From Cercospora beticola (lineage: Eukaryota; Ascomycota; Dothideomycetes; Mycosphaerellales; Mycosphaerellaceae), in the NCBI RefSeq assembly GCF_033473495.1, contig NC_088943.1, positions 62,001-126,000 of the forward strand: a stretch of DNA of 64,000 nt, given 5' to 3'. Position 1 is the stretch's first letter; the number at the start of each line of letters is the position of its first letter. This document shows positions 14,301 through 37,345 of this stretch, one piece after another. Made by a program: the position numbers and the translations under genes. The notes under the pieces were generated by a model that made no database searches, was not told the DNA's origin, and saw only the letters and a list, made by a program, of their open reading frames with translations.

Positions 14301-15939
14301 CAAATGTCAGAGCTGGACTCAGATGAGTAGGAACGAAAGCCAACGTCACGATGAGCAGCTGGAGCAGGCGATATCGTTGTCCGATATCGATCTCATGCTC
14401 CCGCAGGAGCTGAACGCACGCCTCAGCGGCATCTGCCAACTGCGTGGTCTGCAGGGACTCTATGTCGATGACGAGGTTCGCCGTGAGCATTGTCCGCCGT
14501 TGCCTCGCGTGAATCCAGGCGCGCTGATGTCTGGGAATCACTCGCCCAAGGAGTCCAATGCAAGCGGTAACGAAGCACACCAGGACCAAGGGAGCGGCTG
14601 CTGCGAGACCCAGACGTCGGTATAGCATCCAGAGCGCAAATGCTGCTTCGAGTGGACAGCACCACAGGTCATGCAGGCCTGCAAAGCCTACTCGCACCCG
14701 CTCCACTTCCGTGCCCATCAGTGTCAAGCCCTCTGCCTCTGACACCATCTCGACAGTCCGGGTGAGGGTGTGCGTGTACAATGCCTCGATCAGGATTGAT
14801 CGTCCCAAGGACAGTACACGTTCGTGGGAATACCAGTACCATGTCGTTGCTGTCTCCGATCCGGCATATACCAGGAATGTGGCCCCGACAAGGGCCCAGC
14901 CGACTTTTCTCGTGTCGGCATCTGCTGGGCCTCGCAGGTGCTGGAGGATGGCGTTCAGGAGAAAGACTTGGGCAAAGGAGAAGACGGCGAGCAGGGCGCG
15001 GGGAAGAACAGTGGCCAACAGTGGCAGCAACAGTGGGGCGCCAAGCGACCTCAGCGAATGAATGGACGTGCGAGCCCGCACGAGATTGATCCGCGGCGGC
15101 GAGGCCGAGGCGTCGAGGTCGGAGAGGAGTAAGGGCTTCACGTAGCCGGTGCGAAGCAGCGGAAGGAGCCAGGCGAAGGAGGCGAGACTGAACAGCCCCG
15201 CTCCCTCCTCTGGGCTCCGGGGTAGGGTCAGGGTTGCAACACGGTGCGGCAGACATTCCAAGAGCAGAGCGATGAGGTCCACGAGCACGATGGCGCTGGA
15301 CAGGGCAGCGTAGAGGGTGAAAGTCGAACTGCTGGCGACGAGCCACGACGTGCGCACCTGGACCGCGCGCCAGCTGGCATCGAGGACCAAATAGGTCTGC
15401 ATGACGACGGGCGGGCGCAGAGAGCAGCGCGCTTCGAGATGAGCAATCGGAATCAGCAGCAGTGCTACGAGCGACGCAAGACTACCCGAAGCAATGTACG
15501 CGTGCGACTCGGGCGTGTCCAGGGTGGCGCAGACGGCGAGGGCGCCTACATGGCACGCCGCGAGGAGCAGGTAGGCGCACTGGTACGTGTCAGCCAAGAA
15601 TGCGGAGGGGGCGGAGGGACAAAGGAAAAGGGGGAAGGGGGGGGTGGTGCAGACCCGCTTGCACGCATGCGGCCAGCCCAGCGTCACGATGCGTGGTCGA
15701 TGCCAGAGTTGTCGCGCTCTGCAGCATAGGAGCACAACGGCCAGCAGCGATAATGGGACGGGCACGATCACGTGCTCGAAAGTCACGATGAAGTCGCAGT
15801 CGTGGCGGCAGCCGCGCACGAACGGTCCCCAAGCGGCGTCATTGCGGCAGATGGGACGCATGGCGGCACGAGTAGGCTGAGTGGAAGGCTCGCGGGCACG
15901 GCTTTCCACCAAGTACTGCTGCGCCTGGCTGCGAGGCAT
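11342..15939 (-). pseudogene. ABC-C (MRP-type) multidrug transporter, multiply interrupted
   Basis: Full-length ABC-C layout on the minus strand. The likely original start is at 15861 (MRPICRNDAAWGPF, matching the family's C..D..FGP N-terminus). TMD0 and TMD1 follow, then NBD1 (Walker A GPTGSGKST, signature LSGGQRKR, Walker B IYILDE), TMD2 and NBD2 (Walker A GRSGSGKST, signature LSHGELQS, Walker B ILLVDE). The frame breaks near 14066-14072, again near 13943-13952 (these two compensate each other), and again near 13046-13053 (a base missing at WLSFW/AQDRF). A TAG at 12884-12886 lies inside the conserved ALV-APLRLFSG segment. Introns cannot explain these because the conserved protein runs straight through. 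Either the gene is dead or the assembly has several indel errors; I favour a pseudogene. The role would have been ATP-driven export at the plasma or vacuolar membrane. Confidence 0.78.
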
Positions 15940-16210
15940 GCTCCATGGAACATTATGGACGGTGCACGGAGAAATGGGCCGGAAAATTGCACGCGCCAGG
16001 TGGAAGCGTGAGTACCTCTGAATGCAACTAATGCAACCGCAGGTCGCTCAGTCAACCAGCCAAGCTGTCCATGGATCGAGAGCCAATCTGGTTGGGCGCT
16101 TGCACTCAGAGGGAGTCGCAGTCAGAGGTGTCCACGGTTATTTGATCCGTTGTCGTCCGTCCTGCGAGTGCAACGGCGCACCGGTCGGAAGCACCCGCAC
16201 CCGCTCACCG

Positions 16211-18786
16211 ATGTTCGCACTCGCACTCGCACTCGCATGGCTGCTGTGGCTCTGCATTGCCACCGCCACCACACACCGATACCTCATCATCGAGCTGGAC
16301 CGCGCGACGGCGCTGGTGAGTCTCGCATGCCACCCTCCCCCCTCCTCCCCGCTGAGCGCATTGCCTAGAGCACCGAGCACGTCGTGCACGACCTCGCTGC
16401 TCTCGCTGCACAAGAAGCAGCACATGGCTCGAGCATCGTCGTCCGCAAGCGTCGCGACTTGCACTCGGATCTCTTCCACGGCTTCTCGCTGGATGTCACG
16501 TCTCGCAACGGACTGGAAGACATTGCTGCCGTCCACCGCGCCATCCGCCGCCATCACGCCGTGCACAATGCCTGGATCGGCGCCGCAACAGCAGCCCGTC
16601 CTGCGGCACAGCCACTTGAGCAATCGAGGCCACATACACGCCCCGCCCGATGGGAGACCGCGTCCCATCCCCCGCACGCGCAGATCGGCGTAGACCGACT
16701 GAACGCTGCTGGCGTCCGAGGCAAGGGCATCCGCATCGCCATCCTGGATTCGGGCTTTGACTACAAACAGAAGACCTTCCAGTATGCCATTGGGCCTGGC
16801 AACAAAATTACATATGGCCGCACATGGATCAACGGCTCCAGCATCCACACCGGCACCGACGACGACCATGACCCATATGCCGAATGCTCACATCATGGCA
16901 CCCATGTGCTGGGCATCGTGGCAGCCAACCCCACCGACTTTGGCGTCGTGGGCGTGGCGCCAGACGCGACCATCGAGTTGCACCGAGTCTTCGATTGCGA
17001 CGACAACACGGACGAGGACACGTTGCTCAGTGCCCTCACTGCTGCATGGCAGCGAGGCGTGGACGTGATCAACTGCTCGTGGGGCTTGAGCGACCCCTAC
17101 GAAAGTGCGACGTCCATTCTCGCCGCCAGGATCATGAAGAATGGCACGTATATGCAGTTTACTGCCGGCAATGCGGGCCCTCGAACCTTCACCATCCACG
17201 CTCCTGGTGCGACCCACGGCATTCCGGCTGTCGGATCGGTCGACTGTGCCAGCAGTGCCGCATATTTTTGGAATGGATCGCTGTCCTCGGATGACGTGCA
17301 GCGCCGCATTCGCTGGGTCCCGGGACGCACGAATTACACCGTAACCGCCTTCCCGCCGCATCTCGACGTGTGGGCACCCCTTGAGAGCACACCAGAGAAC
17401 ATGCCGTGGCAGCCCGATGCTTTTCCTGCGCACCTGGCAATGCCAGACATGGATAAGACTCTGTTCATGGTTCGACTGGATTTCTTCGCGATCCATCATG
17501 AGCGGATCGTTGCCCGCATCAAGCCGCGATATGTGCTGCTATACCATCCCGCAGGCGGCGATCTTGCCTTCCCCGGCATGTACTTTCCATCGTGGCCGTT
17601 GTCGGAACTTCCAGACACGAGCGCTTTGGCTACTATAGAGCACGCGACCGCAGTGAAGATGCTGCACGACATCATGCAAGGCAGGCGGGTAACCATTTCC
17701 CTCGCGCGCGAGGATGCCCATGCTGACCAGGTGGCATATGCCGTCAACACCCGCACCGGTGGAAGGATGACGGAGAATAGCGGCTGGGGACCAACTGTAT
17801 CCGGGGAAGGTGGAGTGACCTTTGCTGCCCCGGGGGGCAGGATTCTCTCCACACTGCCGCGACTGTACGGAGGCTTCGGACAGCTCACTGGCACGTCGAT
17901 GGCCGCGCCACTGGTGGCTGGAGTCGCTGCATTGCTGAAACAACTTCACCCCTCTTGGACCCCGGATGACATACGCAATGTGCTGGCTACGACTGCTCGA
18001 CCAATGCCCTACACGGACAATAGTACTCATGACTACGGCTTCCTGGCGCCCGTCATTCAACAAGGAGGCGGATTGATTGATGCTTGGAGTGCTGCTCACA
18101 CCACGACCGTGGCCAACGTCTCGGCCCTCGACTTTCTGGATCTTCGACGTCAACCGAAATCGCTTGCTTTCTCCTTGACGAACATGGGCGACGAGACTGT
18201 CACATTCAATGTAGGCCACATCGGTGCGGCATCTGGATATGCGAAGGCGGCTTCTCCGGACATCCGTTCTGCTGATGACAAACATCTCGAGCAATCGCGG
18301 TCGTTGATGGCAATATACGCCGACGTCCAAGTACATCCCGAGGCCCTGCGCCTAGTGCCTGGAGAGACGGCCGTAGTGCGTGTGGCTGTCATGGCGCCTG
18401 CCAGGCTCAATCCGTCGCGCCTGCCATTCTACGGCGGCTACATCGCGCTCAACTCCACTGACAGCGCACAGAACCTGACAGTCCCATACAGTGGCATCGC
18501 TGCTCGACTCCCGGATGATTTTCCTCTCGTCACGCCGAAGACCGTCCGATCGGCGGTGTATTTACCAAGCAAGAATGCACTTGTGAACTGTCCTTACAAC
18601 ACTACCTTCAAGCTGGCCCTCGTTGATAACACAGCGAGATTCCTCGCTAATGCTTGGCCGGTCGTGACATTTGGAACGCCCCCACTCGTACCACGAGAAG
18701 CCCGTGTTTCGATTATTGACACTGCCAGTCAGCAGGCGATTGTCACGCATACCCTTACTCATTCGGATTGGAAAGCGAGGCGATAG
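16211..18786 (+). CDS. Secreted subtilisin-like serine protease (S8, minor extracellular protease Vpr type)
   Basis: Exons 16211-16315 and 16369-18786 (intron 53 nt, GTGAGT..CCTAG, phase 0) give 840 aa. Exon 1 encodes a signal peptide (MFALALALAWLLWLCIATA), and a propeptide follows (YLIIELD ... DLFHGFSLDV). The catalytic triad is visible: Asp in IAILDSGFDY, His in HHGTHVLG, Ser in GTSMAAPLVAGVAALL, with the oxyanion Asn in FTAGNAGP. A protease-associated-like insertion precedes the Ser, and an Fn3-like domain follows (SLAFSLTNMGDETVTFNV ...). The frame stops at TAG 18784-18786, but 76 further codons in the same frame resemble the usual C-terminal beta domain, so the protein is either truncated or a short intron of about 45 nt removes the stop. 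It probably degrades extracellular protein. Confidence 0.85.
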
Positions 18787-20491: not shown

Positions 20492-23028
20492 ATGGCGAAT
20501 GCAGGAAAGGAAATGGAGGGTGCCGCCTCCGAATTCAACGTCGATTCCACTCATCCACGAGCCATGAGCACTACGAAAGATTACAAGCGAAGACCAGGAG
20601 CATGCCAGTACTGCCGAGCCAAGAAGTTTAGATGTAAGTCCGGTATCGGCCAATCGAGACGTCCAGCATGCTCTAATGTTGATTCAGGCGATGGCAGACT
20701 CCCGCGATGCCAACGCTGCGAGGTGAGTCCCAGAGGCAACTCCTGTATCCCACCTACGATTGGCACTGACACTGCATGATCACAGTCGACGCAGCAGGAA
20801 TGCATCTATCGGCCTTGCAAAAAGCGAGGACGGCGGAGCAAGCTTGCTCCACCATCAACGATCGACGACCCAGCGACATTTGATACCCTCGACGAATGGT
20901 GGTGGCCGTTGGTACCACCATCTGCCTCACCGACCCCATCGACACTGCTTTCCACTGTCTCTGCTGGTTCGATGTCACAAGATGTGGAGCGACTCTTCAC
21001 ATCGGACGGAAATGACCCATTGGATAATGGCATTTTCTTGAGCTCAGAATGCCACGATCTCGATCCCTCGGTAGCCCAGCCCAACCAGTTCGACGTATCT
21101 GATGATGCTGATGCTAGAGACTGGCAGTGTCTTCTGGCAACATTGCCATATCAGGTGCAAGTGTTGGAAAGCAACATCTCCGTTGCACGGGGTATGGAGA
21201 GCACGGGTCACTCTCGGCATGTTTCAGGTATGGAAGCTTTCGACTCATGAACGAAACACTCTAAACATTGCGTCAGTGCCTTCGGAAGTCCCGTCTGGAG
21301 AACACGGCGGGAGCGACGGCGGGATAACGAATCGACAAGCCACAGCCAATGCCGGGCCGTTCAATTTTGCGTACCTTGACATCATGCAGTCTGTGATCCA
21401 CTCGTGGCGACAAGAGGGACATATCGACCATAGATTGAGTGCAGCGATTGGACAAACCTTGGCGGCATGTCCATCACTAGTGAGCAGAACCGGAACAGGG
21501 CCGCAGAATGCGCCTCTGCTGGACCTGAAGCGCGCAAAACTTGCGCTGGAAGGTATGGAGAGCACCGGGAAAATCGACCCTAATGCAGAGCACTGAACAG
21601 CTGATGCTGATATTTATCAAAAAATAACAGACTTCTGTCATGACCCTTTCCGGTAAGCCGCAGGCTCCCTGTCCCAAACCGTCGGGCCACCACTGTTGAC
21701 CATGCCAGGGGTGCCCGCTGCATTAGCCGCGCTTCGCTTATGAAGATGGCTGAAGAGGTCTTTTCGAACCACGACCGCATTGCGGAGAAGGTAATCGTGA
21801 TTCACGCTGTGGTTGCTACCAGCATGGCACTCACCCATACAAGTGACGACAGCGAAGAGCGGAATAGAACGGCTCTGGCTCACTATCGCCAGGCGTTTGC
21901 ACACGCAGGTCTATTGCAGTGCTACAAGGCGTCTGCCTTGGCATTCAAAGTAAGCGTACCGGAACATCATACTTTCCGCGGCTGTCATGCTGAGTTGTGC
22001 AGGCCGTGGTATTGTTGGTAGTCTTCCCCACCAAGACTCACACTACCAAGCCATCGCTGATCTTTTCCACCATCTAGATTGTTGCTGCCTGTCACTGGTC
22101 ACCGTGGGATGACGATCAGCTATTAGACATGGCCTGCTCGCGCGCTCAAGCCCTGAGAGCTCACCTTCACGGAGGCGCGGATGATGGCTTGCACAAAGAT
22201 GAAGATGTGGAGGAACTAAGGCGCGCGTTCTGGTTGTTGTACTCCATCGAGAAGCCCGCTCGGATGCAAGCGGGATTCGTATCGGCAAGCGTGCACTTCC
22301 AGCACCCTCTGACCATGTCAAGACTAACGCTGGGAAAGGCATTGAATGACAACTTTTTCACACCCGAGCTGCCATGTTCCCAAGACCATCCGACTCATGA
22401 CAGGGGCCACGAATTCTTGATGCACATCCGACTTGCTCAAGCATGCTCACAAGTGCTGGATCAGCTCTACAGCCGCACAGTCCAAGAGGCCACTGTCGAA
22501 CAAGTCGAGGCTGCAATTGCTACTACGGCCGACTGGATCACCGACGCGGGTCAGATAAGATCCGACGTCAAAGACGTGCTGGATTGCAACACACGATGGA
22601 CTCTATACACGATATTTCTCTACATTCATCGTCGCTCCTTGATACTGCCGGCAGCTTCGCCAGCGCGGCAGAGGGTCGAGAAAGCCGTGAGCACGCTCAC
22701 GTTCGAGATCCTGGAGTCCTTGGTCTACGCAGACCCGCTCGCTGTGCATCGAGAACCGTGAGTGGAGACCGAGGAAACGCAGGTCTTCATGCCGCTAAAT
22801 TTCACATGCAGAACGTTCCTCCGGGCAGCATTGACTGCATTCTGTGTTTCGGCGTGGTCATTGGAAAGCATCGTGATCCACACCGCGCAATTCCGGCAGT
22901 TGGGGTTTGCGCTCGGCTTCTTTGCACGGCTGGCCCGAGACGATGACTTTGCACTGGATCAGACTGCCACCATTTTTCGACTTGTGCAGGAAAGAGCAAT
23001 GTCACAGGTCTGCAGCTCAAAGCAATGA
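20492..23028 (+). CDS. Zn(II)2Cys6 transcription factor, putative regulator of the RiPP cluster
   Basis: Nine proposed exons: 20492-20633, 20688-20722, 20786-21227, 21277-21552, 21601-21652, 21709-21949, 22003-22017, 22078-22757 and 22812-23028. All have GT..AG ends with consistent phase and give 699 aa. The binuclear cluster lies at about residues 38-66, spacing CX2CX6CX6CX2CX6C (CQYC, RAKKFRC, RLPRCQRC, QQEC), interrupted by two introns. A basic stretch KKRGRRSK follows. The C-terminal half resembles the fungal middle homology region (YRQAFAHAGLLQCY ... HWSPWDDDQL ... ELRRAFWLLYSIEK). The 15-nt exon 7 is the least certain element. It lies at the edge of the biosynthetic genes, a usual place for a pathway-specific activator. 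Control of the cluster is inference. Confidence 0.82.
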
Positions 23029-23145
23029 GCATATTTTTCCCAACCCTTTCTAATAACTAAACCGCCGACATAGACAAAGATTTTCGCATTCTCACCAGCT
23101 CTGCGGTCTCCTTGATACATCAGTGAGAGAGGTGTAAGTTGTGTT

Positions 23146-24073
23146 TCAATGCTCGAAGGCCATGGACTTCAAACCCTTCGCCAACGATTCCTTCGGAGGC
23201 AGCCACACACCAGCGACACAGGAAACGGAATCTCCGGTGCTACTTTTCCCCAGCACAGTCTTGCTTGAGGTCTTGTTGCTAATGTAAGTGATGTCCGACT
23301 TGGCTAGCATATGAAGGCAATGCAGAGAGTGCTGCACGTTTCGGGATTTGCTGTCGAGAAGCATGTGCTTTTTCCCCATGGCGCGCACATGTTTGTGCCA
23401 GACATAAGCGCAATGACTGAAATGGTATGCGCCCTGAGATGTTGCGGCTCCTCGTTAGCATGGGATCGATGTATGCGCAAGGGGCTTTGGGAAGAGATTT
23501 AGTACCTCGGTGTAGTAGGGGGAGACTCTGCCCTGGAGTAGCTCTTCGTGCGGAATGACTTGGGTCGCTTCTGCATCCCTATAGAACGTCCAATTCCCTT
23601 GCGCAAAGAGCTGGTCTGACAAATCTTTGTGTTTGCATTCCGCACGAATCCAATCGGTTGCCATGACGTCGAACACACAGCCTGAACACTTTGTCGTCAA
23701 TCATTGCAAGCGGACCACAACGGAATTCCGTCGTTGGTTTACCTTTCGACTCAGCTTCCTGCCAGGAAGATCCGCAGTCGCCCAGATCGAGCGTCCGTAA
23801 CTCATGCATGAAATGAGTATCCACAATGCGCGCGGGAAAGGAGGCAATGGCGACACTGAGCGAAATCGTCGCGATAATCAAGCCCAGAAATGATACTGTG
23901 CATGTCTGCGGAAGAATCTTTCGCCAGCGCGGTCGCGATGCCCTGGAGCCCGCTGACTGCCGCCATCCGACTTGCGGAACGCTGGCTTCATCTATGCTAG
24001 ACGTATACTTGAGGTCGTCGTCGTCGTCGTTGAAAGAGCACAGGGAGTGGGTCGAAGATTCTGCAAATGCCAT
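23146..24073 (-). CDS. UstYa-type membrane oxidase homologue A (two HxxHC motifs)
   Basis: Exons 24073-23743, 23681-23506 and 23433-23146 (introns 61 and 72 nt) give 264 aa. A cytosolic acidic N-terminus comes first, then one membrane span (about residues 60-85, VSFLGLIIATISLSVAIASF), then a lumenal domain. It contains GDCGSSWQEAESKGCVFDVM, CKHKDLSD, NWTFYRD and IPHEELLQG. The two HxxHC motifs expected for UstYa-type enzymes are HFSHC at 173-177 and HSLHC at 204-208. It is clearly paralogous to the divergent neighbour at 24455 throughout, and both share the intron in front of G-[AT]-YHFSHC. UstYa proteins catalyse oxidative cyclisation or halogenation-type chemistry in fungal RiPP pathways. 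The exact reaction here is unknown. It shares a 381 bp promoter with its paralogue. Confidence 0.82.
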
Positions 24074-24454
24074 ATCGGCGGTGACAACCAATTGTGGAGC
24101 AGCAGACACCTGGAGGCTTCCGTATTAAGAGAAGACAATATGATAGGGGATAAGCTCGATCGGCTTGTCCAGATAGGCCGAATTCGTGAATGGCCACGGT
24201 CGGAAATTGTGCGCACTCTGGAACAATACGTGGCCAGGATTATTATCGAGCCAGTGCCATAATCGGAAAATTCTTTTGGACCGGAAACGAAACCAAGAGC
24301 TTCAAGATGCACATGACACGGGTGAACCTGCCCCGGCTCACTCGTAGAATCCGATAACTATGGAGAATGGTGCACCTCCGACTACGGTCCCACAGCTTTT
24401 ATCCCTCTAAAATCGTTCCTTACATACGTGACCCATCCGCACCCATTCTTCACT
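24074..24454. promoter_or_regulatory. Bidirectional promoter 1 of the RiPP cluster
   Basis: Separates the divergent UstYa-type pair. Contains TCGGAA at 24200-24205 and 24263-24268, CCGGAA at 24281-24286, and the 10-mer CCGGCTCACT at 24333-24342 that recurs exactly in promoter 2. Role as regulator sites is inferred. Confidence 0.5.
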
Positions 24455-25272
24455 ATGGCTCCGACCGGCCCTGGTTACACACGCGTTGAGGAGAACCTGG
24501 CCAAACATGGCACCGGATCAAAGTCAGAAGAGTTCGATGATGTTGGCTACTCATATCGAAGGCCTGACCCTGCTTGGACCAAAGTGGTCACGGGCAATGC
24601 ACTGGCCATTTTACTTTCGCTGTGTGCTCTGATCTTAGCACTGGTCGCGTCCTTTGGCATCTATGAACGCCACGCAAAGTTCGAGGTTCCAAGTGAGCGT
24701 ATCAATCTCGGGACGTGCGGCCGGAATTGGCAGGAAGCAGAAGCGAACGGGTGTGTGTACGATGTCATGATGACAGCCTGGTTGAAGCCGCAATGCTACG
24801 ACAAAGAGCTTTCCGATTCGTTCTTCTACCGCGACTCCGCCAACTGGACGTTCTACCGCGATCCTGAGGGAAAAGATGTCATGCCGCATGAAGAACTCTT
24901 CCAAGGTCGCTATGAAGAGTATTGGGTTCAAGTGCGTGATCAGCCTCACAGGAAGTCACAATGTAGAAAGTGGATGCTAATCATCGACAGGGGACGTATC
25001 ATTTCAGCCATTGCTCCTACATTTGGGCAAAGCAGCTTCGACAGATGGGTAAAAAGCCGATGACACTAGACTCGAAGTTTCGGAACTGGTACCATACCCT
25101 CCACTGCGCCAATATGCTGGCGGAGGCAAACGTCACGTACATAGGTGGCCGGGCTTCTTCCCATGCAAAACTTGGCACGAATTCAATTGACTGCATTGTC
25201 GGAGACTGGATGACGTTCGAGTCGATACCAGCTGAGCTACAAAGGGGAGCCGGCCCATCCAAGGAGGAATAG
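24455..25272 (+). CDS. UstYa-type membrane oxidase homologue B (two HxxHC motifs)
   Basis: Exons 24455-24931 and 24991-25272 (intron 59 nt, GTGCGT..GACAG, phase 0) give 252 aa. The ATG at 24455 is the first methionine in frame. One membrane span at about residues 44-70 (ALAILLSLCALILALVASFGIY). The lumenal part has GTCGRNWQEAEANGCVYDVM, PQCYDKELSD, NWTFYRDPEGKDVMPHEEL, HFSHC at 163-167 and HTLHC at 194-198. Length and order match the minus-strand paralogue, except that this copy lacks the first of its two introns. In the family, HxxHC histidines are thought to bind metal for radical or oxidative cyclisation. Which bond is formed here cannot be told. The two copies form a sub-type distinct from the classical UstYa-like gene at 29108. 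Confidence 0.82.
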
Positions 25273-25470
25273 GCCTCGGAATATCACGCACTCGGCATGC
25301 GATATAAAGAGCTGGTGCGATGACTAGCTTTTTCGGCCGGAGACACTCACGACTTGGAGGCATGGCATATAGCTGAGATGGTAACGATTCTTTGCGTAAA
25401 AGTTCTACTTTCGACACATCGATCTGAGAAACTCTGAAAGCAATAGCCACAACCAGTACGTATACGCTTC

Positions 25471-26292
25471 TCAGCCCTTGAGCAATCTTCCCCCGTCGAC
25501 AATGATGGTGGTACCACTTGCATAAGAGCTCTTCATGCAATACAAATACGCTTCTGCCACATCCTCCGGGGTCCCAACCGTGTTCGTCAGCGTAGTTCTC
25601 CGGAAAGCTTCGAGCCTCTCCTCCAGTAGTGTCGGGTCCATTTTGTTGCTCGCTGTGCTGTGGACAGCCCCTGGAAACACAGTGTTTACGCGGATGGGCT
25701 GCAGATCTACGGCAAAGCCGAGTGTGAAACCCGAGATACTCGACATGATGCCCGCCATGACACTCCAGCCCGGAGAGGGCTTCATTGCTTGCGTGCCGCC
25801 GGTGAGCGTCACCGAGCTGTGAGCCGACTTGGACATGTAGGCAGGAACCAATTTGGCCAGGAGGACGGGAGCCAAGACTCGTACAGTCTGCATCAGCTCG
25901 AAGTCATGCGGGGTCACATGCTCGAGTGGTGAGATTGTGATGTTATTACCGGCTGTGAAGACGACGTGGTCCAACTTGTGCCTCCCATGCACAGTTGCTG
26001 TGTCTAGCAATGATAGGAGGGCCGACTCTTGTAAAGATGGATTGCTGAGGTCGCATATGCTGCCAGATACTGTTGGTTCCCCAGCGTGGGGTGTCTGTTG
26101 GAGCGGGCTTTCGATCTTGCTTAAATGTTGTAGGGCGGTATGGAGCTTGCTCGCAGTGCTGCCGCTGACGGTGACACTCGCTCCATGCTCCAGAGCGGCT
26201 TCTGCGACACAAAGCCCTATACCGGACGTGCCTCCGATGATTAGAATGCGATGACCGCGCAATTTACTGATATACTGTGGTGTATGCCCCAT
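25471..26292 (-). CDS. Short-chain dehydrogenase/reductase with atypical active site
   Basis: Single exon, 273 aa, the normal SDR length. The Rossmann nucleotide-binding motif is intact (ILIIGGTSGIGLCVAEA, residues 16-32), an NNAG-equivalent is seen as FTAGNN, and the C-terminal SGTTIIVDGGRLL is standard. The catalytic YxxxK is missing. Where it should stand, after SVTLTGGTQA, the protein reads MKPSPGWSVMAG, a PGW variant known in some fungal cluster SDRs. It probably still binds NAD(P)(H), but the chemistry may differ from simple carbonyl reduction. It is head-to-head with the AsaB-like gene across 525 bp, inside the RiPP cluster, suggesting a tailoring step on the peptide. Confidence 0.85.
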   Translation of the reverse strand: MGHTPQYISKLRGHRILIIGGTSGIGLCVAEAALEHGASVTVSGSTASKLHTALQHLSKIESPLQQTPHAGEPTVSGSICDLSNPSLQESALLSLLDTATVHGRHKLDHVVFTAGNNITISPLEHVTPHDFELMQTVRVLAPVLLAKLVPAYMSKSAHSSVTLTGGTQAMKPSPGWSVMAGIMSSISGFTLGFAVDLQPIRVNTVFPGAVHSTASNKMDPTLLEERLEAFRRTTLTNTVGTPEDVAEAYLYCMKSSYASGTTIIVDGGRLLKG

Positions 26293-26817
26293 GACGCCAA
26301 GTTCGTCTTCTCATGATACGAAGGGCGACGCTTCAGCACGCGGGCAGGGGCTCGTGAACGCGATCCCTCACGTGTAGAGAGCACTGTGACCACTTGGCAT
26401 GAGCAGGGCTTGGAAATGGAAAAAAGGAAATGCAGGCACAGTCGGGTGAACAATTCCAGACGTGTCGCGCCCAGTCGCTATCTGCCCTTTCCGAAGCCAC
26501 GATATCAAAAGAAAAAAGAAGGACAAAGCGCCCCGGCTTCGTCGAACTTTGGCGTACGACGAGGATTTGCGAGCTCGGAATTATACCGGCTCACTATGGA
26601 ACATGTCTGCGGCTGGAAATTCTCCGTGCGCACAGTTTGTTCCGGGTATGCCTGTAACTCTTCCATTTCGGGAGCACTGTAGGAACAATGTCTCTGTCAC
26701 GGAATTTCATGGCGCAAAGCTGGCCGCTCGGACTGACAGACAATGGGCCTCAAGTCTCGGTGAGCTGCTGGCCCGGTCGTCGATCAAATCCTCACAATTT
26801 GCGAACTAGCCGCTGCC
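26293..26817. promoter_or_regulatory. Bidirectional promoter 2 of the RiPP cluster
   Basis: Between the SDR and the AsaB-like gene. Contains TTCCGA at 26489-26494, TCGGAA at 26575-26580 followed by CCGG (CGG-N7-CCG palindrome-like), and the 10-mer CCGGCTCACT at 26586-26595 shared with promoter 1. Confidence 0.5.
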
Positions 26818-27877
26818 ATGGCTCCCACTGTCGTAAAAGCAAGCCTCAATTATGTCAAACCACCAGAGGAAAGCGAGGAATGGCTCCAACACTATATTCC
26901 CGGCTCAGTGGGCATCCATCGACTCAAAATCGATCCGCACCATGTGGAGATTACAGACATTCGAAGTACAGAAGAACCATGTCTTCTGGATGTTCAAGGC
27001 TTTCAGATCATCAAAGGGAAGCCTGTCGATCGTAGAATATTTGACCAGGACAATACAGACATCGCAAGCCGGATGGCGGCTCAGGCGGTGGAGCTCTTGA
27101 AAGAAACGTGAGTGACACGCGGCGATAGCGCGGCGGCGATAGCGCGGCGGCGATGCTTACGTTTCTTCATAGTACCGGGGCATCATATGTGCTGATGTTC
27201 AATCATGTTACACGGTTTGAGCCACCAGAGAAGCTCAACGGCTTGTCCCCAGACATGCCAAATGAGGCAATGTTTCCATACATGGGCCCATTTGCCTCTG
27301 TGCACGTCGGTACGTATCATCGGTCTTCGCCAGTGTGGTGCACACCAAAACTGAATGTCTGCTTCATCTAGATCAATCATACCGTGGTGGAAGGTACATT
27401 GTCAATAATTTCAAGCATATACCTGAAGTTGCTCAGAGGCTCACGGAATCGGGAACCACTTGCCGCTTCGCTGTGATCAATGTCTGGCAGCCCGTGTCGC
27501 CTGTCACACGAGACGCATTGGCTCTCTGCGACCGTCGAACAGTCGATGAACAAGACCTTCGACCCTGGCGGAGTCATCCAGATCCCAGTCAGTGGGATCC
27601 CAAGCTACCCCTGCCGCTTTCGGAGATTTGGAGACCGATGTACAATCCCAAGCACAAGTGGTATTATGCGAGTAAGATGCAGACCAACGAAGCCTTGCTT
27701 ATCAAGTGCTTCGATACCAAGCTTGATGAGCACTCGAGAGCAGTGCCACATTCTGCTTTCCGGGCACCGTCGGACTCCGGTCCCCCGCGGGAGAGCGTCG
27801 AATTTCGGTGTCTCGTGTTCTGGGACAGTCAGCCGTTCAGCGACGAGACGGCTTTCTTGAATCCTGTGCGGGTGTAG
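26818..27877 (+). CDS. AsaB/CmcJ-type (GA4 desaturase-like) oxidoreductase
   Basis: Exons 26818-27107, 27173-27309 and 27372-27877 (introns 65 and 62 nt, phases 2 and 1) give 310 aa. The protein follows the fungal hydroxylase/desaturase AsaB pattern, the family often named CmcJ/NvfI or GA4-desaturase-like. It has YVKP near the start, then DIRSTEEPCLLDVQGFQ, SYVLMFNHVTRF, an HxD pair in VHVDQSY (His141, Asp143), FAVINVWQPV, and a late FRCLVFWDSQP. Members act in secondary-metabolite clusters as oxidising tailoring enzymes, by analogy with non-heme Fe(II)/2-oxoglutarate enzymes. The substrate is probably the peptide or a side chain of it (inference). The first intron contains a short GC-rich tandem repeat. 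Confidence 0.82.
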
Positions 27878-28325
27878 GTCATTCTCGCTGGCGTAGAATT
27901 GAGATCTCATGTAGGCAAAGGAAAAGATGAAGTAGTGAACAAGAGAGCACACCACGGGCATCAAATCTCGAATATTGCAGACAGTAAAAAGGCAGACAGT
28001 GAACAGAACCTTCTTGAGATATGCAATAGAAGGACAATGGTCAGTGTGTGAGACTGCGTTGGCACATCGTGATGATGGAGGGAATGAGATCAATTTTGCG
28101 CAGTATCACTCCACTCACATCCCGCTCACTAAGTGTTTGGATAATTCCTACGCTTGTTTGATCCGATTTTGCACCATTGTTTACAAGATGACGAAAGTGT
28201 CGGCTTGTGGGTCACTATCTGCCAACTACTGCAACCTGACTTATCTCTGAAGCACGACTCGCCCACTCAATGCGTGCGCCTCGATCGTCTCGCTATTCGG
28301 TTCGATCGCGCGGCTCAGAACTACT
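27878..28325. other. Spacer between converging 3' ends
   Basis: Lies between the stop of the AsaB-like gene (plus) and the stop of the precursor gene (minus). No ORF of note; it should hold both 3' UTRs. Confidence 0.45.
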
Positions 28326-28562
28326 TCACACCAGGTATTGATAATCCGGTTTTGCGACATCCTCTCCAGCGCCCTTCCTCACGAGATACTGGTAATCTGG
28401 CTTGGCCACATCCTCTTCGTGCTTCTTGACCAAGTATTGGTAGTCGGGTTTTGCTACATCTTCTTCGTGCTTCTTGACTAAGTACTGGTAGTCAGGCTTG
28501 GCGACATCTTCGACGCCTTTCTTCACAAGGTACTGGTAGTCGGGCTTCGCAACGTCCCCGTT
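28326..28562 (-). repeat. Five tandem core-peptide repeats in the precursor gene
   Basis: About 48-51 nt units, each encoding DVAKPDYQYLV plus a dibasic linker. Units differ by synonymous changes and in the linker residues, not in the core. Confidence 0.92.
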
Positions 28563-28631
28563 TGGCATTGGTGCGGCGAAGACGGAGCTCAGAGAGAGCG
28601 AGAGGATTGCACAGGTATGTTTGATGCGCAT
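28326..28631 (-). CDS. Repeat-containing RiPP precursor peptide (dikaritin-like)
   Basis: 101 aa, one exon. The ATG at 28631 gives a good signal peptide (MRIKHTCAILSLSLSSVFAA). After PMPNG come five copies of DVAKPDYQYLV separated by KKGVE, KKHEE, KKHEE and RKGAGE; the last copy ends the protein. KK and RK suit Kex2-like proteases of the Golgi. Every copy has the same 11 residues, yet the codons differ between copies (for example Leu is CTT, TTA, TTG, CTC and CTG in turn), so selection keeps the peptide constant. Signal peptide, dibasic-bounded identical repeats, Tyr in the core and neighbouring UstYa-type genes are the hallmarks of dikaritin precursors. The core is probably within PDYQYLV; its exact borders are not visible. 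It is head-to-head with the UstYa homologue at 29108. Confidence 0.92.
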   Translation of the reverse strand: MRIKHTCAILSLSLSSVFAAPMPNGDVAKPDYQYLVKKGVEDVAKPDYQYLVKKHEEDVAKPDYQYLVKKHEEDVAKPDYQYLVRKGAGEDVAKPDYQYLV

Positions 28632-29107
28632 CTTGTCTTGGTTTGATTTCTTTGAAAACACTGAATTTGTTTTTGTTTTGGCGTAAAGGTGTGTGACAAT
28701 GGGCTTTACGGTCAACAGCTTTATAAGTCTTCGTTCCAATATTTTGGCATGTCCTGCCGGCCATCTCATTACTCGGAATAAATCTTCACGATGTTGGCTA
28801 TTTCCCATGCGAAATGGTGTGCTACAGTCCTAGCTAAGAATAAGACATAACTTGAGCCGAAGGATTGTCGAATCCGAGTCAAGATTCGGAACATAGATCC
28901 AACAGCGATTTGGGCTTTCCAGATCCTAGAGATCATTGACCTCAGCTCGGAAAAAGACATGCTCACCCTTATGCTAATATTTTCCGTTCCCCGGAGCAAA
29001 TCTGCCGAAGACGTGCACGTTCCTAGCCCCAGCACTTGGCATTCCAGAAAGGTCACGTACATCATGCAACTGCCTCAATTCGATTGCATTGCGCGTGGAC
29101 GGACAAG
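28632..29107. promoter_or_regulatory. Bidirectional promoter 3 of the RiPP cluster
   Basis: Shared by the precursor and the UstYa homologue C. TCGGAA occurs three times (28773-28778, 28886-28891, 28947-28952), and TCCGTTCCCCGG lies further downstream. This is the densest promoter for the motif, in front of the precursor. Confidence 0.55.
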
Positions 29108-30108
29108 ATGAACATGCTCCCTCGATTGCAGAAACTCCAGGAGAGTGCACTGAAGACGTTTGCTGCAAAACGAATCGATCTTAATTCGAACATTGAAAAT
29201 GCACACCTGCTGGCAGCAGATGAGACCAAGATCGATGCTGAGCTGCGGTTCGATAAGCCACAGCGCAAATGGCCCAGACGCACTTGCAAAATCATGTTGA
29301 TGCTCTCGTGCACTATCCTGCTGTGGCTGTACATCCAAGCTGTGAGAAGCAAAGGCGAGACAAATGGAGTTCTCTTTCTCGGCAACGAAGGTAAACCTCC
29401 GGCCCGCTATAGCCTGCAATGCGATGAAGCTGACTGGGCCGATACGAAGTCATCTACAGTGACGCACCTACTGCGCTAGAAACTCACCCCTTGGATCGTG
29501 CCGGCTTCCATCGCAACGATGGAAGCGACCCAGATACGGCATTCGAAAGCAGACCGAACGAGAAAAACGACGCAGCATGGCATCACATCCTGAACGTGGG
29601 CATGATCGCAATCACGGAAGAAGAGAACGCGCGTCTTCCAAATGGCGGCTCATCAAGGGTACGAAACGATCCTGAACACCGCGTTGTGCTCCTCTCACTA
29701 TTCCACCAACTGCATTGTCTTGTAAGTTTCGACCGAGCAGTTCATCTGGTCCTTCCAAAAAAGACAAACTTTTCTGACAAAAATCTTTCCCATCACCAGA
29801 AATACCTCCGTGATCTTATCTACGACTTTGATGAAGGCGCCGTAATTCCAGGTGCCAGAAATGAATATCAATTGATGCACGGCGACCATTGCATCGACTA
29901 TCTGCGACAAGTCCTTATATGTCACGGCGATCTGACGCCGATTAGGCAACATTGGGAGCCGAGTCTCCACGCTTATGCCGCGGAACAGGAAACTGTTCAT
30001 CAGTGTCGGGATTTCCAGAAGATCTGGGAGTGGGCTGCGGAGCGGAATACTACGGGCCTTCGAGCAGACGGCAAGCACGAGAAGCACGAGAAGCACGAGA
30101 ATGAATAG
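29108..30108 (+). CDS. UstYa-like (DUF3328) oxidase, homologue C
   Basis: Exons 29108-29390, 29450-29721 and 29800-30108 (introns 59 and 78 nt) give 287 aa. The second intron stays in frame if unspliced, but removing it joins HQLHCL to KYLRDLIYDF, the classical UstYa context. One membrane span at about residues 63-82 (KIMLMLSCTILLWLYIQAV) follows a cytosolic N-terminus. The lumenal domain holds HQLHC at 180-184 and HGDHC at 212-216 (DHCIDYLRQ), the canonical HxxHC pair. The tail ends in three KHE units. Known relatives (UstYa/Yb, PhomYs, AprY) oxidatively crosslink Tyr-containing cores in fungal RiPPs; this is the best candidate for macrocyclising the peptide from the adjacent precursor. The bond made is unknown. 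Confidence 0.9.
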
Positions 30109-31813: not shown

Positions 31814-33069
31814 GGTTTTCTTTACTGGTTGAAAAGGGAGGGTGAGTTACTGCTCATATTCGGCGACATGCTCCAGGAGCAGAGGACAGTGCTCCATGAG
31901 CGAAGCGGTGGGTGATCAAGAGTGGGATACTGTGGGCGAAGCATCAGAATTGCCAGTACTCTGAATCTTCCCCATTGTGCTGGAAGGAATCAACCCAACA
32001 TAGCGTACTGGACGGCAACCGATACTCACTGTAAGGCCATGAAACATGCGCGGGGGTGAGACGGAAGGCTGAGCAATACAGTGGTTTGCCTTCCACTATG
32101 CGATAGCTTCAATAAGGAGGCCCCAAAGCGGCCAGATCGCCATCTCAGAGACTCTGAAACAGACGAATTGTGCCAATGTGACGTACACTATTTGATCGTA
32201 CTTTACTTTGTAGTACTTCGTCTGCTGCCTCAGGCATCATTAGCTTGGCATTCGGGTAACTTCTCTTTCTTCCACCGCCACCACAACCTCCACCTTCCCA
32301 ATACTTCCTGGCCGCCCTCTGACGAACAACGACCTCGACCCTATCAACTCCAAGTTCAACTCGCGCCGTTGTTATGGCACCAGAGGCTGACAGATAGTGA
32401 CGCGTCGGAGACGCATGAAAGCGACCTCTGCGGCCTCGCACCGTCGCACGACATTATTTACGGCTGGCACGAGACGCGCTTCTGGTCTGCCACTCGACGC
32501 ATTGAACGCCGGAGGATTGGCTCACAATGATCAGCAGGTTTGCTTTCAGCCTTGCGCTTACCTCTTCCAGTCGTTGTGCATGTCGTTTCGATGCTGCGGC
32601 CCCCGCATTGTGGCTGATTCGTGGAATTTCTGGGCAATGCTGCGGGCCCGAAGCCTGAATATCATCAATGAAGATAGGACAGCACAAAATTCCATGACAC
32701 TCTGGGCAGTAACTCCATCTCGCAACCTGCGAGGAGCATAAGGGCCGCGAGCGGGAGTCCACACCCTTATTGACATCCAGCTGAGTCTCGACTATTGAGC
32801 CTTGCAGCTCATTGCGCATCTGCAGGCGCCACAAGGCTGTGTCCAGGAGGTGTTACCTCTCCGCCCCAACTATCCCGCACAGCTGGCACATGTGGTTTTA
32901 TCACTACTTCCCGTCGTGCCATCTCTCGTTTCCTTGTCGCATCGCAAGCTGGACCCATGAGTCTCCTACATTGACTCACTACTGAAACTGCAGCGCACGG
33001 CCGGCTCACCTCATTTGCGACACCTCGATTGCGCACAAGTGATGTGCCAGATTCGAGGAGCTTCTCAAC
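31814..33069. other. Intergenic, no supported gene
   Basis: ORFs at 32081-32530 and 32397-32741 lack domains and codon patterns I would trust. Includes the promoter of the NLR gene. Confidence 0.35.
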
Positions 33070-36000
33070 ATGTCAGGCCTTGAAGGCGGAGCTGCGGTCT
33101 TCTCGCTAGTCGTTGGAGTCATCGAGATCATCCACAGAGCTATCGAGATTTATGAGGCTGTCAACGACAAGTCGGGCATTCCAAAAACGCTCAAGAAGGT
33201 GTCAGAGAAGCTTCCTTCGGTGGAGGAGATACTCAAAAGTGCGGAAGCTCAGCACAAGGCGGGAGCTCTCAAAGATATAGACAAGGACACGTGGGCCAGC
33301 GCGGAACGAGAGGTCGAAAAGTGCAAGCAAGCCTGCCAGGAACTGCACGACCTGCTTCAGAGCGCCTATCCCAAGGCTGACTCGGGCAGATCAGAACGGC
33401 TGTGGAAAGGCGCAAAGACAGTACTCAGCGGCAAGGGCAAGACCGCCGAAGCGCTGCTGAAAGAAATCTCGGACTATCTGACCTTTCTGGCTCAGAGAAA
33501 GATCGTCAACAACGCTGCTCTGCTTGAAGACATCAAGTCTCTCGTGGAAGAATTATGCCCAGAAACTACGACCACCCACATGCACAATGTCAACGGCGAC
33601 AATATCGGTACTCTCCATGGTGACAAGAATGTCAATTCCGGATCTGGCTTTCAGTTCACCGGATCGGGCGGTACATACAATTTTGGTGGAGGTATGTTCA
33701 AGTAGAATCCTGAACACGGTACTTGATTCTCGCCTCGCGGAAAGAAAGCAATATCGGTGTTGTCGTGGTCCAGGAGGCAGTTTTCGTAGCGAATGACGAC
33801 TCTGTCGAGTACTTCTCTGGGCGTCCTGTTGTTTTGCAGAAACGATCTGTAATCAGAGCCACTGCTGATTTGATCGCGTGTTCCTAGCACAGAGTGAGGA
33901 TAACCAGTGGGCTCTACTATCCCTGAGGCATCGACACCATAAACCATTCTCGGAAGAGAACTCTATCATTCTACGAAAGTGGATCTCACGCTCGTACGGC
34001 CATTCTCAGAGCCTCACAGTACCAGGTAAGGTCTCATCATCCGGCAGTCACGTGGCACTTATAACTTCATCGATCGAGTGCTGATTTGCCTTGTGTATAG
34101 ACTCCAGTCCTGTCAGATTCGAGAAGATCTACAAAAGGATATCCAACGATGATCCGATCGCCACATATCAGCGGCTATCGGGGAGGAAAGCTGACAATAC
34201 AACCAGGTGGTTAGTCGAGCATGAAGACTTTCAATCCTGGCTGTCCGAAGATCCCGCGAAACATCGTCTGTGGCTCTCGGGTAAAGGTGTGAGCGGGCAA
34301 TGACCAGCCATTTGGCAGAATGCTGATTCAGGTGCACAGTCGGCTCGGGCAAGAGTACTCTTGTGTGCGTCCAATCCCTCTGATGCATTGTACGCGCCCT
34401 TTGGTTGTCAGCTGACTTTGATAGGACTACCGTCATCGACGAGTGTCATGCCAACCTCAAATCCGGCGAATCTTCCGCTGTGTTAATGTTCTTCTTCAAC
34501 AGCCACGACGACACGGCTCTTTCGTTCTTCGAGAGTCTGACGAAGCAACTCATCGCTACCCTGATTGGTATTGACGTGCCGAGTTCCCGGGATATCCTTT
34601 CAGCTCTCGAAACGGCATATGGCAACGACATTTCCAGACCTCACATCGCACAAGTCTTCGAAGATCTTGTCGTCCCACTTTGTCAAATACTCCAGCAAAT
34701 CACTCTGGTGATCGATGGCATTGATGAATGCAGAGCAGCGGAGGTGAAGCAGCCCTGGCATTGGCTGGAGAGGCTTCTAAAACTTGTCCAGCCAAGGATC
34801 TTGATCACTAGTGAGGACCAGGCGAATATTTCACCTCGCTTCAAGGGTTTCCACCGAATCCGAATTGATCACCTGCACAACCAATTCGACATTGACACAT
34901 ATATTAACGAGCGGATCGCCAGCAAATCCAGTGCTGGCCAAGTACTGTACGACGAGTCGTTGAGGGATGAAGTCAAGGTGACGCTACATCAGAAAGCTAA
35001 CGGGATGTGAGTCCATATGCTGCAAGAAGATACGCAGCATTTCTGACAAGCTCAGGTTCCTCTGGATCCATTTAGTCCTGAACATCATCTTGGAAGACTG
35101 TGAGACCCCTGCCCAGGTGAGGAAAGCCGTCGATGAAATTCCGCCTGATCTTCAAGCTGTATACTCGCTCTGTCTGGAAAACAGGCGAGGCACCGCGCGT
35201 CCCATCAAGGCCAATCTGTTTCTCTGGACTTGCGCTGCGCCCAATCCCTTGAGCATTGGTGCTCTTGGAGAACTGATAGCTATGGATTTAGAAACCGGTC
35301 ACGTGGACACCGACGAGATTCCCTTCGCAGATGTGCTGCTAAAATCAGGGGCCGGTCTAATTACCCTGGACACAAGCGCCATACCAAATGCACAGTCCGA
35401 CGAGCATCTCGTTATACCTGTACACTCAACAGTGCGGGACTTCATATTCTCTGAGCGCTTCCGTTCGCTGGCGGCCAAAGCAAGTCACCAGGAATCGTGG
35501 CCACTATGTGTCGAGACTGGCCAGTGGAGCGAGAATACATTCCGGACTGCGTTAGGATCACTTTGTTTGTCTCACATCAAGCAAAGAACTTCCCGAGAAC
35601 TGGGTTCGAGACCACCGCCGACCAGGCTTGTCGTACCTCAGCCTAAGGTACTACAGTCTGTTGCATGGGTCCAGAAGATCCTGATCGGAGTTCGCTCGAA
35701 ATCAGCAGAGATGACAGCGTTTTTGCCCGTTCCCGGACGTAACAAAACCAGGGTTTCTACCACCAATTTTCTACGTTACTCCATTGAAAACTGGTTGGTC
35801 TGCAACACCAATCTCGCATCAGCTACAGCAAATTTCCCATGGCTTGCCAAAGAAAACCAAAAGAGCGACTTACACACGGCAGCAGAATTTTTCGAGGAGA
35901 TTTCCATCGAACGCAATGATTTTTATGGCATTCATCCTTGGAAAGCTGCCGCTCGGACGTCAAACTCACACCTTTCACAAATGTTCGCGTATGCGGTAGC

Positions 36001-37345
36001 AAACAACCACGTGCCACTTATGTAAGTTGTCCGAAAACATCGCCGCCGTCTGCCTAAAGAAGTTTTCGACAGCCCTCTTGCGCAACATGGCCAAATGCTA
36101 GCCATACACGTTGCAGCCAAAAAGGGCTTCGCTTCAATCATTGAGGAACTTGTCAACATATGCAACGTGAACGCAATGTGTCCTTCAAGAAGGCAGCATG
36201 TACTTCACTTTATTGCAGAGAATGGAACGGAGGACTGCCTCCAGCCCATCCTTTCGATGAACCTCGATTGGAACGCCCGCAATCGGGACGGGCGTACTGC
36301 ACTGTTTGTAGCGATGGTGGCTGGCCATGATGACATTGTGAAAGCCTTACTAGAGGCAGAAGGTTTCGAGGTTGACGAAGAAGCGACATTCTGTCAGGTT
36401 CTGCTCCACTGGGCCGTTTATCACGGCCACGACAAGGTCAAGCAGCTTCTGCTGGACACTGGCAAAGCCGCCATCGACGAAGAGAAGGAATGGTATTACG
36501 ATCTACTGTCGTGGGCTGCGCGGAATGGTTATGACAAGATAGTGCAGCTGCTCCTAGACATCAGCAAAGCCGCTTCTGATGAACAGAATAAATGGTACGA
36601 CGCTATACTGTCGTGGGCTGCACACAATAGCTACGATGAGATTGTGGGGCCACTCCTAGAGACAGGCGCTGTCAATTCAACAGACAAAGATGGCCTGACT
36701 CCATTGTACCGGGCTTCACTTAGGGGTCTCGACAAGGTAGTGCAGCTCCTGCTAGATACAGGCGAAGTCGACGTTAATGCAGCGACCAAAGATGGCCGGA
36801 CTCCGTTCTACTGGGCCGCACGTTTTGGTCACGACAAAGTAGTACAGCTCCTCATAGAGACAGGCAAAGTCGATGTTAATGCAGCGGACAAAAATGCCGA
36901 GACTTCATTCTACCTAGCTATATATTGGGGTCACGATAAGGTCGTGCGGCTCCTACTTGAGACTGGCAACGTCAATGTTAATGCAGCGAACAACAACGGC
37001 GAGACTCCATTACATTGCGCTGCATCGAGGGGTCACGAACACGTAGTGCAATTGCTACTAGGGAAAGGCAAGGCCGAGGTCGACGCGGCCGACCATGCCG
37101 GCCGAACCGCATTGATCTCTGCTGCGAGTTCAAGCCACGACAAGGTGGTGCAGCTTCTCTTAACAAGGAGCAACGCCGACATCAAAGCAGCAGATCATAA
37201 GGGGCAGACTGCGCTGGATTATGCCAGATCACAGGGTCATGAAAGGATAGTGCAGCTCCTAGAGAGACTGTCTAGCGATGATTTTTTCGATAGAACGATG
37301 GCGATGATAGAGTGCACGTCTGCATATGGCTCGACTGAGGAATAA
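33070..37345 (+). CDS. NLR-type protein: SesA-like domain, amyloid-like motif, NACHT, ankyrin repeats
   Basis: Seven proposed exons: 33070-33691, 33888-34025, 34101-34286, 34340-34364, 34425-35006, 35056-36021 and 36073-37345. Phases are consistent and give 1,263 aa. Residues 1-170 are helical and resemble SesA/NACHT_N (VFSLVVGVIEIIHRAIEIYE start). Residues about 170-207 are Gly/Asn/Ser/Thr-rich (GDKNVNSGSG, FQFTGSGGTYNFGGG), like the amyloid-type signalling motifs beside such domains. The P-loop GSGKST is at about residues 318-323, on a 25-nt exon; Walker B VIDGIDECRA is at about 420. Ankyrin-type repeats run from about 850 to the end, many nearly identical (HDKVVQLLL.TG). NLRs of this type control non-self recognition and cell death in fungi. 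Exon 2 is the least certain. Confidence 0.82.
36250..37270 (+). repeat. Ankyrin repeat array within the NLR gene
   Basis: About ten units of roughly 33-37 codons with recurring HDKVVQLLLDTG and VDVNAA segments. Several neighbouring units are highly alike also in DNA (CTCCTAGAGACAGGC-like stretches), which favours unequal crossing-over or conversion. Confidence 0.75.

Follow-up and report, generated by a model that had tools for sequence, protein, structure and literature searches.

What kind of product do the genes of a small cluster in Cercospora beticola make? We analyzed a stretch of 64,000 nucleotides (the window), which corresponds to bases 62001-126000 of contig C9 (NC_088943.1; 2,471,293 bases) in a genome of 36.07 Mb. 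A first-pass annotation had proposed that positions 20492-30108 of the window hold an undescribed gene cluster for a ribosomally synthesized and post-translationally modified peptide (RiPP) of the dikaritin type. From our analysis we think it likely that the locus encodes a dikaritin-like RiPP pathway by which C. beticola would make an oxidized peptide from (D)YQYLV. This reading is the best supported one; its grounds are a repeat precursor with kexin-type sites that is under strong purifying selection, the PF11807 match of one protein (UstYa3), the putative tailoring oxidoreductases, and a similar mix of genes at other loci of this genome. The parts, the selection on the repeats, the motifs and the company of the genes can be read directly from the DNA. 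The features are as follows, in positions of the window.

28326-28631, minus strand: precursor, 101 amino acids, one exon; signal-peptide-like N-terminus and five DVAKPDYQYLV units
29108-30108, plus strand: UstYa3, 287 amino acids, three exons (29108-29390, 29450-29721, 29800-30108); canonical PF11807 UstYa
23146-24073, minus strand: UstYa1, 264 amino acids, three exons (24073-23743, 23681-23506, 23433-23146); Pfam-less HxxHC(x)26HxxHC membrane protein
24455-25272, plus strand: UstYa2, 252 amino acids, two exons (24455-24931, 24991-25272); Pfam-less HxxHC(x)26HxxHC membrane protein; CB0940_12145
26818-27877, plus strand: CmcJ/NvfI-family (AsaB-like) oxygenase, 310 amino acids, three exons (26818-27107, 27173-27309, 27372-27877); CB0940_12147
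25471-26292, minus strand: protein with the fold of a short-chain dehydrogenase/reductase (SDR), 273 amino acids
20492-23140, plus strand: Zn2Cys6 regulator with several exons, hand-spliced in its N-terminal part only; approximate 3' end
16369-18786, plus strand: subtilase (Peptidase_S8 and fn3_5), an 805-amino-acid stop-to-stop frame; proposed cluster member
11342-16047, minus strand: ATP-binding cassette (ABC) transporter, three frames (one ABC_membrane match, two ABC_tran matches); no more than a candidate for membership
24074-24454: divergent promoter of UstYa1 and UstYa2
26293-26817: divergent promoter of the SDR and the oxygenase
28632-29107: divergent promoter of the precursor and UstYa3

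Thus the core consists of three head-to-head gene pairs, with the regulator flanking one side. The spliced models of UstYa2 and the oxygenase are identical to public C. beticola proteins (100% identity over 100% of the length); this check covers these two, and the models of UstYa1, UstYa3 and the regulator are predicted splicing. Contig C9 starts with telomeric CCCTAA repeats, and the core cluster therefore lies 82-92 kb from the chromosome end.

The N-terminus of the precursor is hydrophobic and resembles a signal peptide, as judged from visual inspection and a simple hydropathy rule. The first-pass annotation had described five identical repeats bounded by dibasic sites. The five units are indeed identical in amino acid sequence, but not every copy is flanked by such sites on both sides. 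That is, copy 1 adjoins the N-terminal segment and copy 5 runs to the stop codon, and the four dibasic sites (KK, KK, KK and RK) lie between the copies. In Tandem Repeats Finder the array has a 48-base period and 4.5 copies.

The five 33-base units have a mean identity of 77%. Twelve of the 33 sites are variable, and no amino acid is changed. The silent share of random single changes in these units is 21%, and the finding that all 12 variable sites are silent therefore indicates selection on the peptide, rather than chance or a fresh duplication. All eleven residues of DVAKPDYQYLV are constant, not only the last seven, so that DVAK should either belong to the peptide or serve for recognition. 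The precursor has one match in the 36-Mb genome, and a degenerate pattern for its unit hits exactly these five places (control, 0). A search that requires shared five-residue words found no relative of the precursor besides itself at E <= 10 (1063 candidates from 5.8 billion proteins).

These data bear on a first alternative, namely that the repeat protein is a source of secreted peptides that stay linear and unmodified (a hormone, a wall component or a pheromone-like peptide) and that the neighbouring oxidases act on something else. VA and KP, which are dipeptides of the STE13 type (PMC6339444), stand directly before DYQYLV, 78% of published repeat precursors have no DUF3328 neighbour (PMC7329392), and the linkage of the precursor was not seen conserved in any homologue. 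However, the dipeptides after the KEX2 sites are GV, HE, HE and GA, not a run of XA/XP, and VA and KP come only later. The marks that PMC6339444 gives for alpha pheromones of Dothideomycete groups, two conserved Cys or PYGXPXG, are absent from the peptide. Mating factors, moreover, have no DUF3328 neighbours apart from three exceptions (PMC7329392), and three genes with paired HxxHC motifs lie within 5.2 kb of this precursor, and one of them has its divergent promoter region in common with it. We therefore regard this alternative as quite improbable.

Returning to the dikaritin-like pathway, we prefer YQYLV, within (D)YQYLV, as the putative core, because an Asp precedes the first Tyr, as in the EDYXI repeat motif of the ustiloxin type (PMC6339444), and a basic pair directly follows the Val. 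A core containing Tyr fits the published Tyr content of 65.6% for repeats beside DUF3328 genes (PMC7329392). The computed [M+H]+ masses are 685.356 for YQYLV (683.340 with 2 H less, 681.324 with 4 H less) and 800.383 for DYQYLV (798.367 and 796.351).

Which enzymes would act on such a core? The paired HxxHC motifs that the first-pass annotation had noticed in three proteins are present in all three models: HFSHC/HSLHC in UstYa1 and HFSHC/HTLHC in UstYa2, each with a spacer of 26, and HQLHC/HGDHC in UstYa3, with a spacer of 27. Its further statement that all three are UstYa-type oxidases suits UstYa3, which matches PF11807 with an E value of 7.2e-38. UstYa1 and UstYa2, in contrast, have no Pfam match at E <= 0.1 and have the metal motif only in common with UstYa. 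The two proteins share 39% identity in alignment, and in both a single hydrophobic stretch precedes HFSHC(x)26H[S/T]LHC.

Searching the genome with UstYa2 yielded 12 matches. Five of them fall in the pair of the window, and the remaining seven are single-gene matches at five other loci, so that this Pfam-less family is present at six loci of the genome. The family alignment has 11 rows and omits two of the seven other genome members (C8:304k and C5:292k, each with one HxxHC readable in frame) and the truncated sequence P0006. It contains 13 invariant columns, including both HxxHC motifs with all six of their motif residues and an upstream C-G...E-A...C...W...C. None of the 11 members matches PF11807 at E <= 1. 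When the profile of this family was compared with that of nine PF11807 members of the genome, both motifs fell in register with a probability of 21.6%. Taken comprehensively, the Pfam-less family and the PF11807 UstYa proteins have the metal motif in common and are likely to be of common descent. The AlphaFold model of UstYa2, built from six homologues, had a mean predicted local distance difference test (pLDDT) score of 44.2 and gave no basis for a fold search.

The function of the motif has been studied in CctR, where HxxHC(x)nHxxHC binds two copper ions per monomer and motif mutants are inactive; CctR and other DUF3328 copper enzymes have in common an N-terminal transmembrane segment and a luminal HxxHC(x)nHxxHC (PMC12435403). 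UstYa3 is a PF11807 member like them. UstYa1 and UstYa2 differ from them in the extra conserved positions CG..EA..C..W..C and in not matching PF11807.

It is conceivable that UstYa1 and UstYa2 carry the metal motif as accessory proteins (copper carriers, or partners or chaperones of UstYa3) and are not oxidases. The CctR authors hypothesize that Cu(I) or electrons are supplied by an accessory protein (PMC12435403). The absence of a PF11807 match from all 11 aligned members and the weak profile similarity agree with such a role, and a PF11807 match lies within 10 kb at five of the six family loci, as would be expected of a partner. On the other hand, none of the six motif residues varies among the 11 sequences aligned, the motif spacing is as in UstYa3, and the nearest PF11807 match to the C8:304k member is about 42 kb away. 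We judge the accessory role to be somewhat unlikely, and prefer to regard both proteins as putative oxidases.

The other loci of this family also contain precursors. At four of the six loci (the window, C4:726.8k, C5:849k and C9:454.7k) we found a KEX2-type repeat precursor after a signal-peptide-like start; at C5:849k and C9:454.7k this start was read by eye in another frame, across a presumed intron. The precursor at C4:726.8k (C4:726812-728623, minus strand; 603 amino acids, secreted type) has 30 copies around APQYVWSPKAAEKR. The one at C5:849k has 9 copies of DGGELSTADPEGDQSADAVENNKVNH in 28-residue repeats, the main part of the unit being without Tyr. The one at C9:454.7k has 2 copies of QGYPDGYYEDEAYVPP and was found only by Tandem Repeats Finder. 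The exact-word repeat scan with a hydrophobic start covered the window and 51 loci (L001-L051), a looser repeat scan the window and 20 of these (L032-L051), and Tandem Repeats Finder the window and 5 of the 20. Repeat precursors occur at 5.25 per ascomycete strain (PMC7329392), and this published figure is our sole background. At about 5 per genome, the 142 kb of the family loci should hold about 0.02 of them, a post hoc comparison in which our criteria are looser than the published ones.

At the C4 locus the precursor lies between two Pfam-less HxxHC genes, near PF11807 matches and a 2-oxoglutarate-Fe(II) oxygenase, and forms a second RiPP-like cluster. At C5:841-850 kb the repeats adjoin two Pfam-less HxxHC genes, a PF11807 match and an fn3_5 subtilase. 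At C8:301k a CmcJ-like match stands beside the Pfam-less family member. Frames at C9:443-447 kb encode a heavy-metal-associated domain and a HAD hydrolase and apparently form a P-type metal ATPase, of which the outer parts were scanned; it adjoins the C9:448k HxxHC/repeat-precursor locus and is a possible copper supplier. Among loci with PF11807 matches and no Pfam-less HxxHC gene, C9:621 kb has a repeat precursor with EVPYEVGLTYADYG units, and the looser scan saw none at C1:966k and C8:1450k. In the whole genome there are at least 63 exon-level PF11807 matches, spread over more than thirty places, which is a large number of UstYa-type genes for a single fungus.

The remaining core genes bear out what the first-pass annotation had called an AsaB/CmcJ-type oxidoreductase, an atypical SDR and a Zn2Cys6 regulator. 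The oxygenase scores 192.5 bits against NF041278 (CmcJ/NvfI; cut-off 80). It has VHVD and PH motifs, and HxD...H and R..(V/I)E are kept in all five full-length relatives inspected, which places it in the CmcJ/NvfI/EfuI (AsaB-like) family. In the CmcJ/NvfI family the VHVD and PH motifs carry the Fe ligands. A single literature search yielded no characterized member of the CmcJ/NvfI/EfuI family in a RiPP cluster. The idea that PDB entry 7eus represents TqaL, an aziridine enzyme, could not be verified and was set aside. Within its first intron the oxygenase gene holds a perfect 14-base tandem repeat (2.6 copies; 27119-27154).

The SDR has the fold of PF23441 (E 4.7e-41) and of PDB entry 6nkh (3.8e-53), both of which are MalC/PhqE entries; its closest entries in the PDB are 6nkh, 6nkm and 6nkk. 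It lacks YxxxK and has GWSVMAGIMSSISGF at the aligned catalytic position. The hand-spliced N-terminal part of the regulator matches PF00172 (E 8.9e-8), and a Fungal_trans match downstream is under its cut-off. The sequence TCGGAA occurs seven times across the three divergent promoters. Seven were reached in 8 of 100,000 random segment triples, but the motif was chosen post hoc from 18,197 dyads, among which a P value like its own (3.7e-5) is expected about 0.7 times by chance. CGG-N-CCG dyads were not consistently enriched in these promoters.

Is this set of genes kept together in other fungi? UstYa2 gave six matches at E <= 0.01 (357 candidates), including C. beticola itself: Pseudocercospora musae (69%), P. 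fijiensis (74% over 91%), Periconia macrospinosa (78% over 57%) and two further sequences. The oxygenase gave six matches at E <= 1e-40 (646 candidates), again including C. beticola itself: C. zeae-maydis (82%), a Phaeosphaeriaceae isolate (64%), another sequence (59% over 66%) and, in addition, Colletotrichum siamense (42%) and a paralogue from C. beticola (39%). The UstYa2-like P0006 and the oxygenase-like P0011, which come from the same source, very likely lie on one 5,574-base contig, and this linkage would support a joint pathway.

The same contig joins the two genes without evidence of a precursor, and this suits a further alternative, in which the product of UstYa1, UstYa2, the SDR and the oxygenase is non-ribosomal or a small molecule, and the RiPP unit consists of the precursor and UstYa3 alone. 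DUF3328 enzymes act on non-ribosomal peptides too, CctR being an example (PMC12435403). However, our Pfam scan of 39 open reading frames (ORFs) and gene models of the window gave no match to a backbone synthase, and the Pfam-less family lies near repeat precursors at four of its six loci in this genome. We consider this division of the cluster improbable, and continue with the dikaritin-like pathway. The same 39 ORFs and models gave no tyrosinase, P450 or methyltransferase, in agreement with the first-pass annotation, which had seen neither of the first two in the cluster.

Does the cluster end at the regulator? An S8/fn3_5 subtilase frame lies 1.7 kb before it. We found two fn3_5 matches in the genome; such counts, like those of PF11807, are lower bounds (here, at least two). 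The second fn3_5 subtilase is beside the C5 family locus, with 30% identity over 819 aligned positions. That both lie within 10 kb of the six family loci has a chance of about 1.6e-5 (post hoc). Since both border family loci, we extended the proposed cluster to 16369. The extent of 20492-30108 in the first-pass annotation thus fits the core, but the cluster probably reaches upstream to the subtilase, which that annotation had not mentioned. The position of the subtilase suggests a maturation protease, and the single kexin-type P_proprotein match found in the genome is elsewhere (C4:1.466 Mb). Likewise, no dedicated transporter lies inside the core, as had been stated, but an ABC transporter, a candidate member only, stands with the subtilase directly upstream.

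We propose the following route. The precursor would enter the secretory pathway, where the housekeeping kexin would cut after KK/RK and a carboxypeptidase would take off the lysines to leave, for example, HEEDVAKPDYQYLV. In the Golgi lumen the three proteins with the copper motif would then oxidize the core, and most likely one or both tyrosines of YQYLV would become cross-linked through the side chain to another side chain close by. The N-terminal DVAKPD flank would be removed by peptidases, for which the subtilase is a plausible candidate. After that, the oxygenase and the SDR would oxidize or reduce the peptide, and the ABC protein may export it.

Several points weigh against this proposal. 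Kexin is said to use KK/RK less than KR/RR (PMC6339444), and the separators here are KK/RK. The precursor has no homologue, the precursor-enzyme link would be known from this genome alone, and the cluster itself is known here only as sequence. The copper function of UstYa1 and UstYa2 is drawn from their motif, and their profile similarity to UstYa is weak. No repeat precursor was seen at C8:304k or C5:292k, two of the six family loci, and one of the six has no PF11807 match within 10 kb. The species lists of the UstYa2 and oxygenase relatives overlap only in C. beticola and the P0006/P0011 contig; no Pseudocercospora oxygenase was found at E <= 1e-40 and no C. zeae-maydis UstYa2 at E <= 0.01. 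This small overlap makes the case for one conserved cluster weaker. In addition, dikaritin clusters as originally defined have a tyrosinase and a methyltransferase, and the ORFs and models scanned contain neither. That definition was later relaxed (PMC12048977), and the asperipin-2a cluster likewise lacks both enzymes in the available text of PMC6514808.

The cluster resembles those of ustiloxin B and phomopsin in its kexin-cut secreted repeat precursor, its UstYa/DUF3328 oxidases and its Zn2Cys6-type regulator. It differs from them in its (D)YQYLV core and in its enzymes. Tyrosinase, methyltransferase and P450 are missing from the ORFs and models scanned, and their place is taken by the two HxxHC proteins without a Pfam match, together with the CmcJ/NvfI oxygenase, the SDR and the subtilase. 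The asperipin-2a cluster (aprA, aprY, aprT, aprR) is also small, with a repeat precursor, a DUF3328 enzyme, a reductase, a transporter and a Tyr-rich core, FYYTGY. In contrast to the one DUF3328 and two Pfam-less proteins here, it has one DUF3328 protein; its reductase is isoflavone-reductase-like, and the available text mentions neither a CmcJ/NvfI enzyme nor a subtilase (PMC6514808). In the epichloecyclin cluster (gigA), a DUF3328 gene and kexB, which encodes a protease of the subtilisin type, accompany the repeat precursor (PMC7317419); there the protease is a kexin, whereas here it is an S8/fn3_5 subtilase.

The class named by the first-pass annotation is thus supported by the precursor with Kex2-type sites and by UstYa3, but two of the HxxHC proteins fall outside PF11807, and the subtilase and transporter had not entered that description. 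The word undescribed agrees with the literature searched, where neither the core string nor the locus tags occur, and where no paper among those listed describes this cluster in its title or the start of its abstract (supplements and subscription papers being outside the search). Clusters of repeat precursors with DUF3328 genes are numerous in print: 1758 of 7878 repeat precursors have DUF3328 neighbours (PMC7329392), and nine dikaritin clusters are reported from Venturia inaequalis (PMC9632046). The interesting parts here are the unrecognized oxidase family and the recurring subtilase, and the putative enzyme family of UstYa1 and UstYa2 is possibly new.

Directly downstream of the cluster, a gene resembling fungal NOD-like receptors (33043-37345) has SesA, NPHP3_N/NACHT and ankyrin-repeat frames, with 102-base repeats inside them (36462-37071). 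Still further on, past other genes, follow a major facilitator superfamily transporter of the TRI12 type (42250-43905) and, at 52404-54011, an S28 peptidase; we do not claim them for the cluster.

A relative of UstYa2 may connect this family with plant infection. The P. fijiensis relative is MYCFIDRAFT_173540, and a protein 173540 has a log2 fold change of 9.82 in infected banana leaf, with 10.6 for protein 173539, the preceding gene model; both are described as 'hypothetical, no conserved domains' (PMC5006380, Table 1). The two 173540 entries are tied by identifier only. We speculate, tentatively, that a second Dothideomycete family of paired-HxxHC membrane copper oxidases, missed by the Pfam UstYa model, may act on KEX2-repeat precursors in concert with a canonical UstYa, joined at some loci by a dedicated fn3_5 subtilase. 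Such a family would define a distinct class of fungal RiPPs, including crop-pathogen peptides induced in the plant. If this is true, mining by PF11807 alone would miss enzymes of fungal RiPP pathways, at six loci in this genome, four of them with a precursor nearby. The present cluster would then offer a defined core and a candidate maturation protease, and the family may provide an explanation for a gene that was reported as strongly induced in black Sigatoka and had been left as hypothetical.

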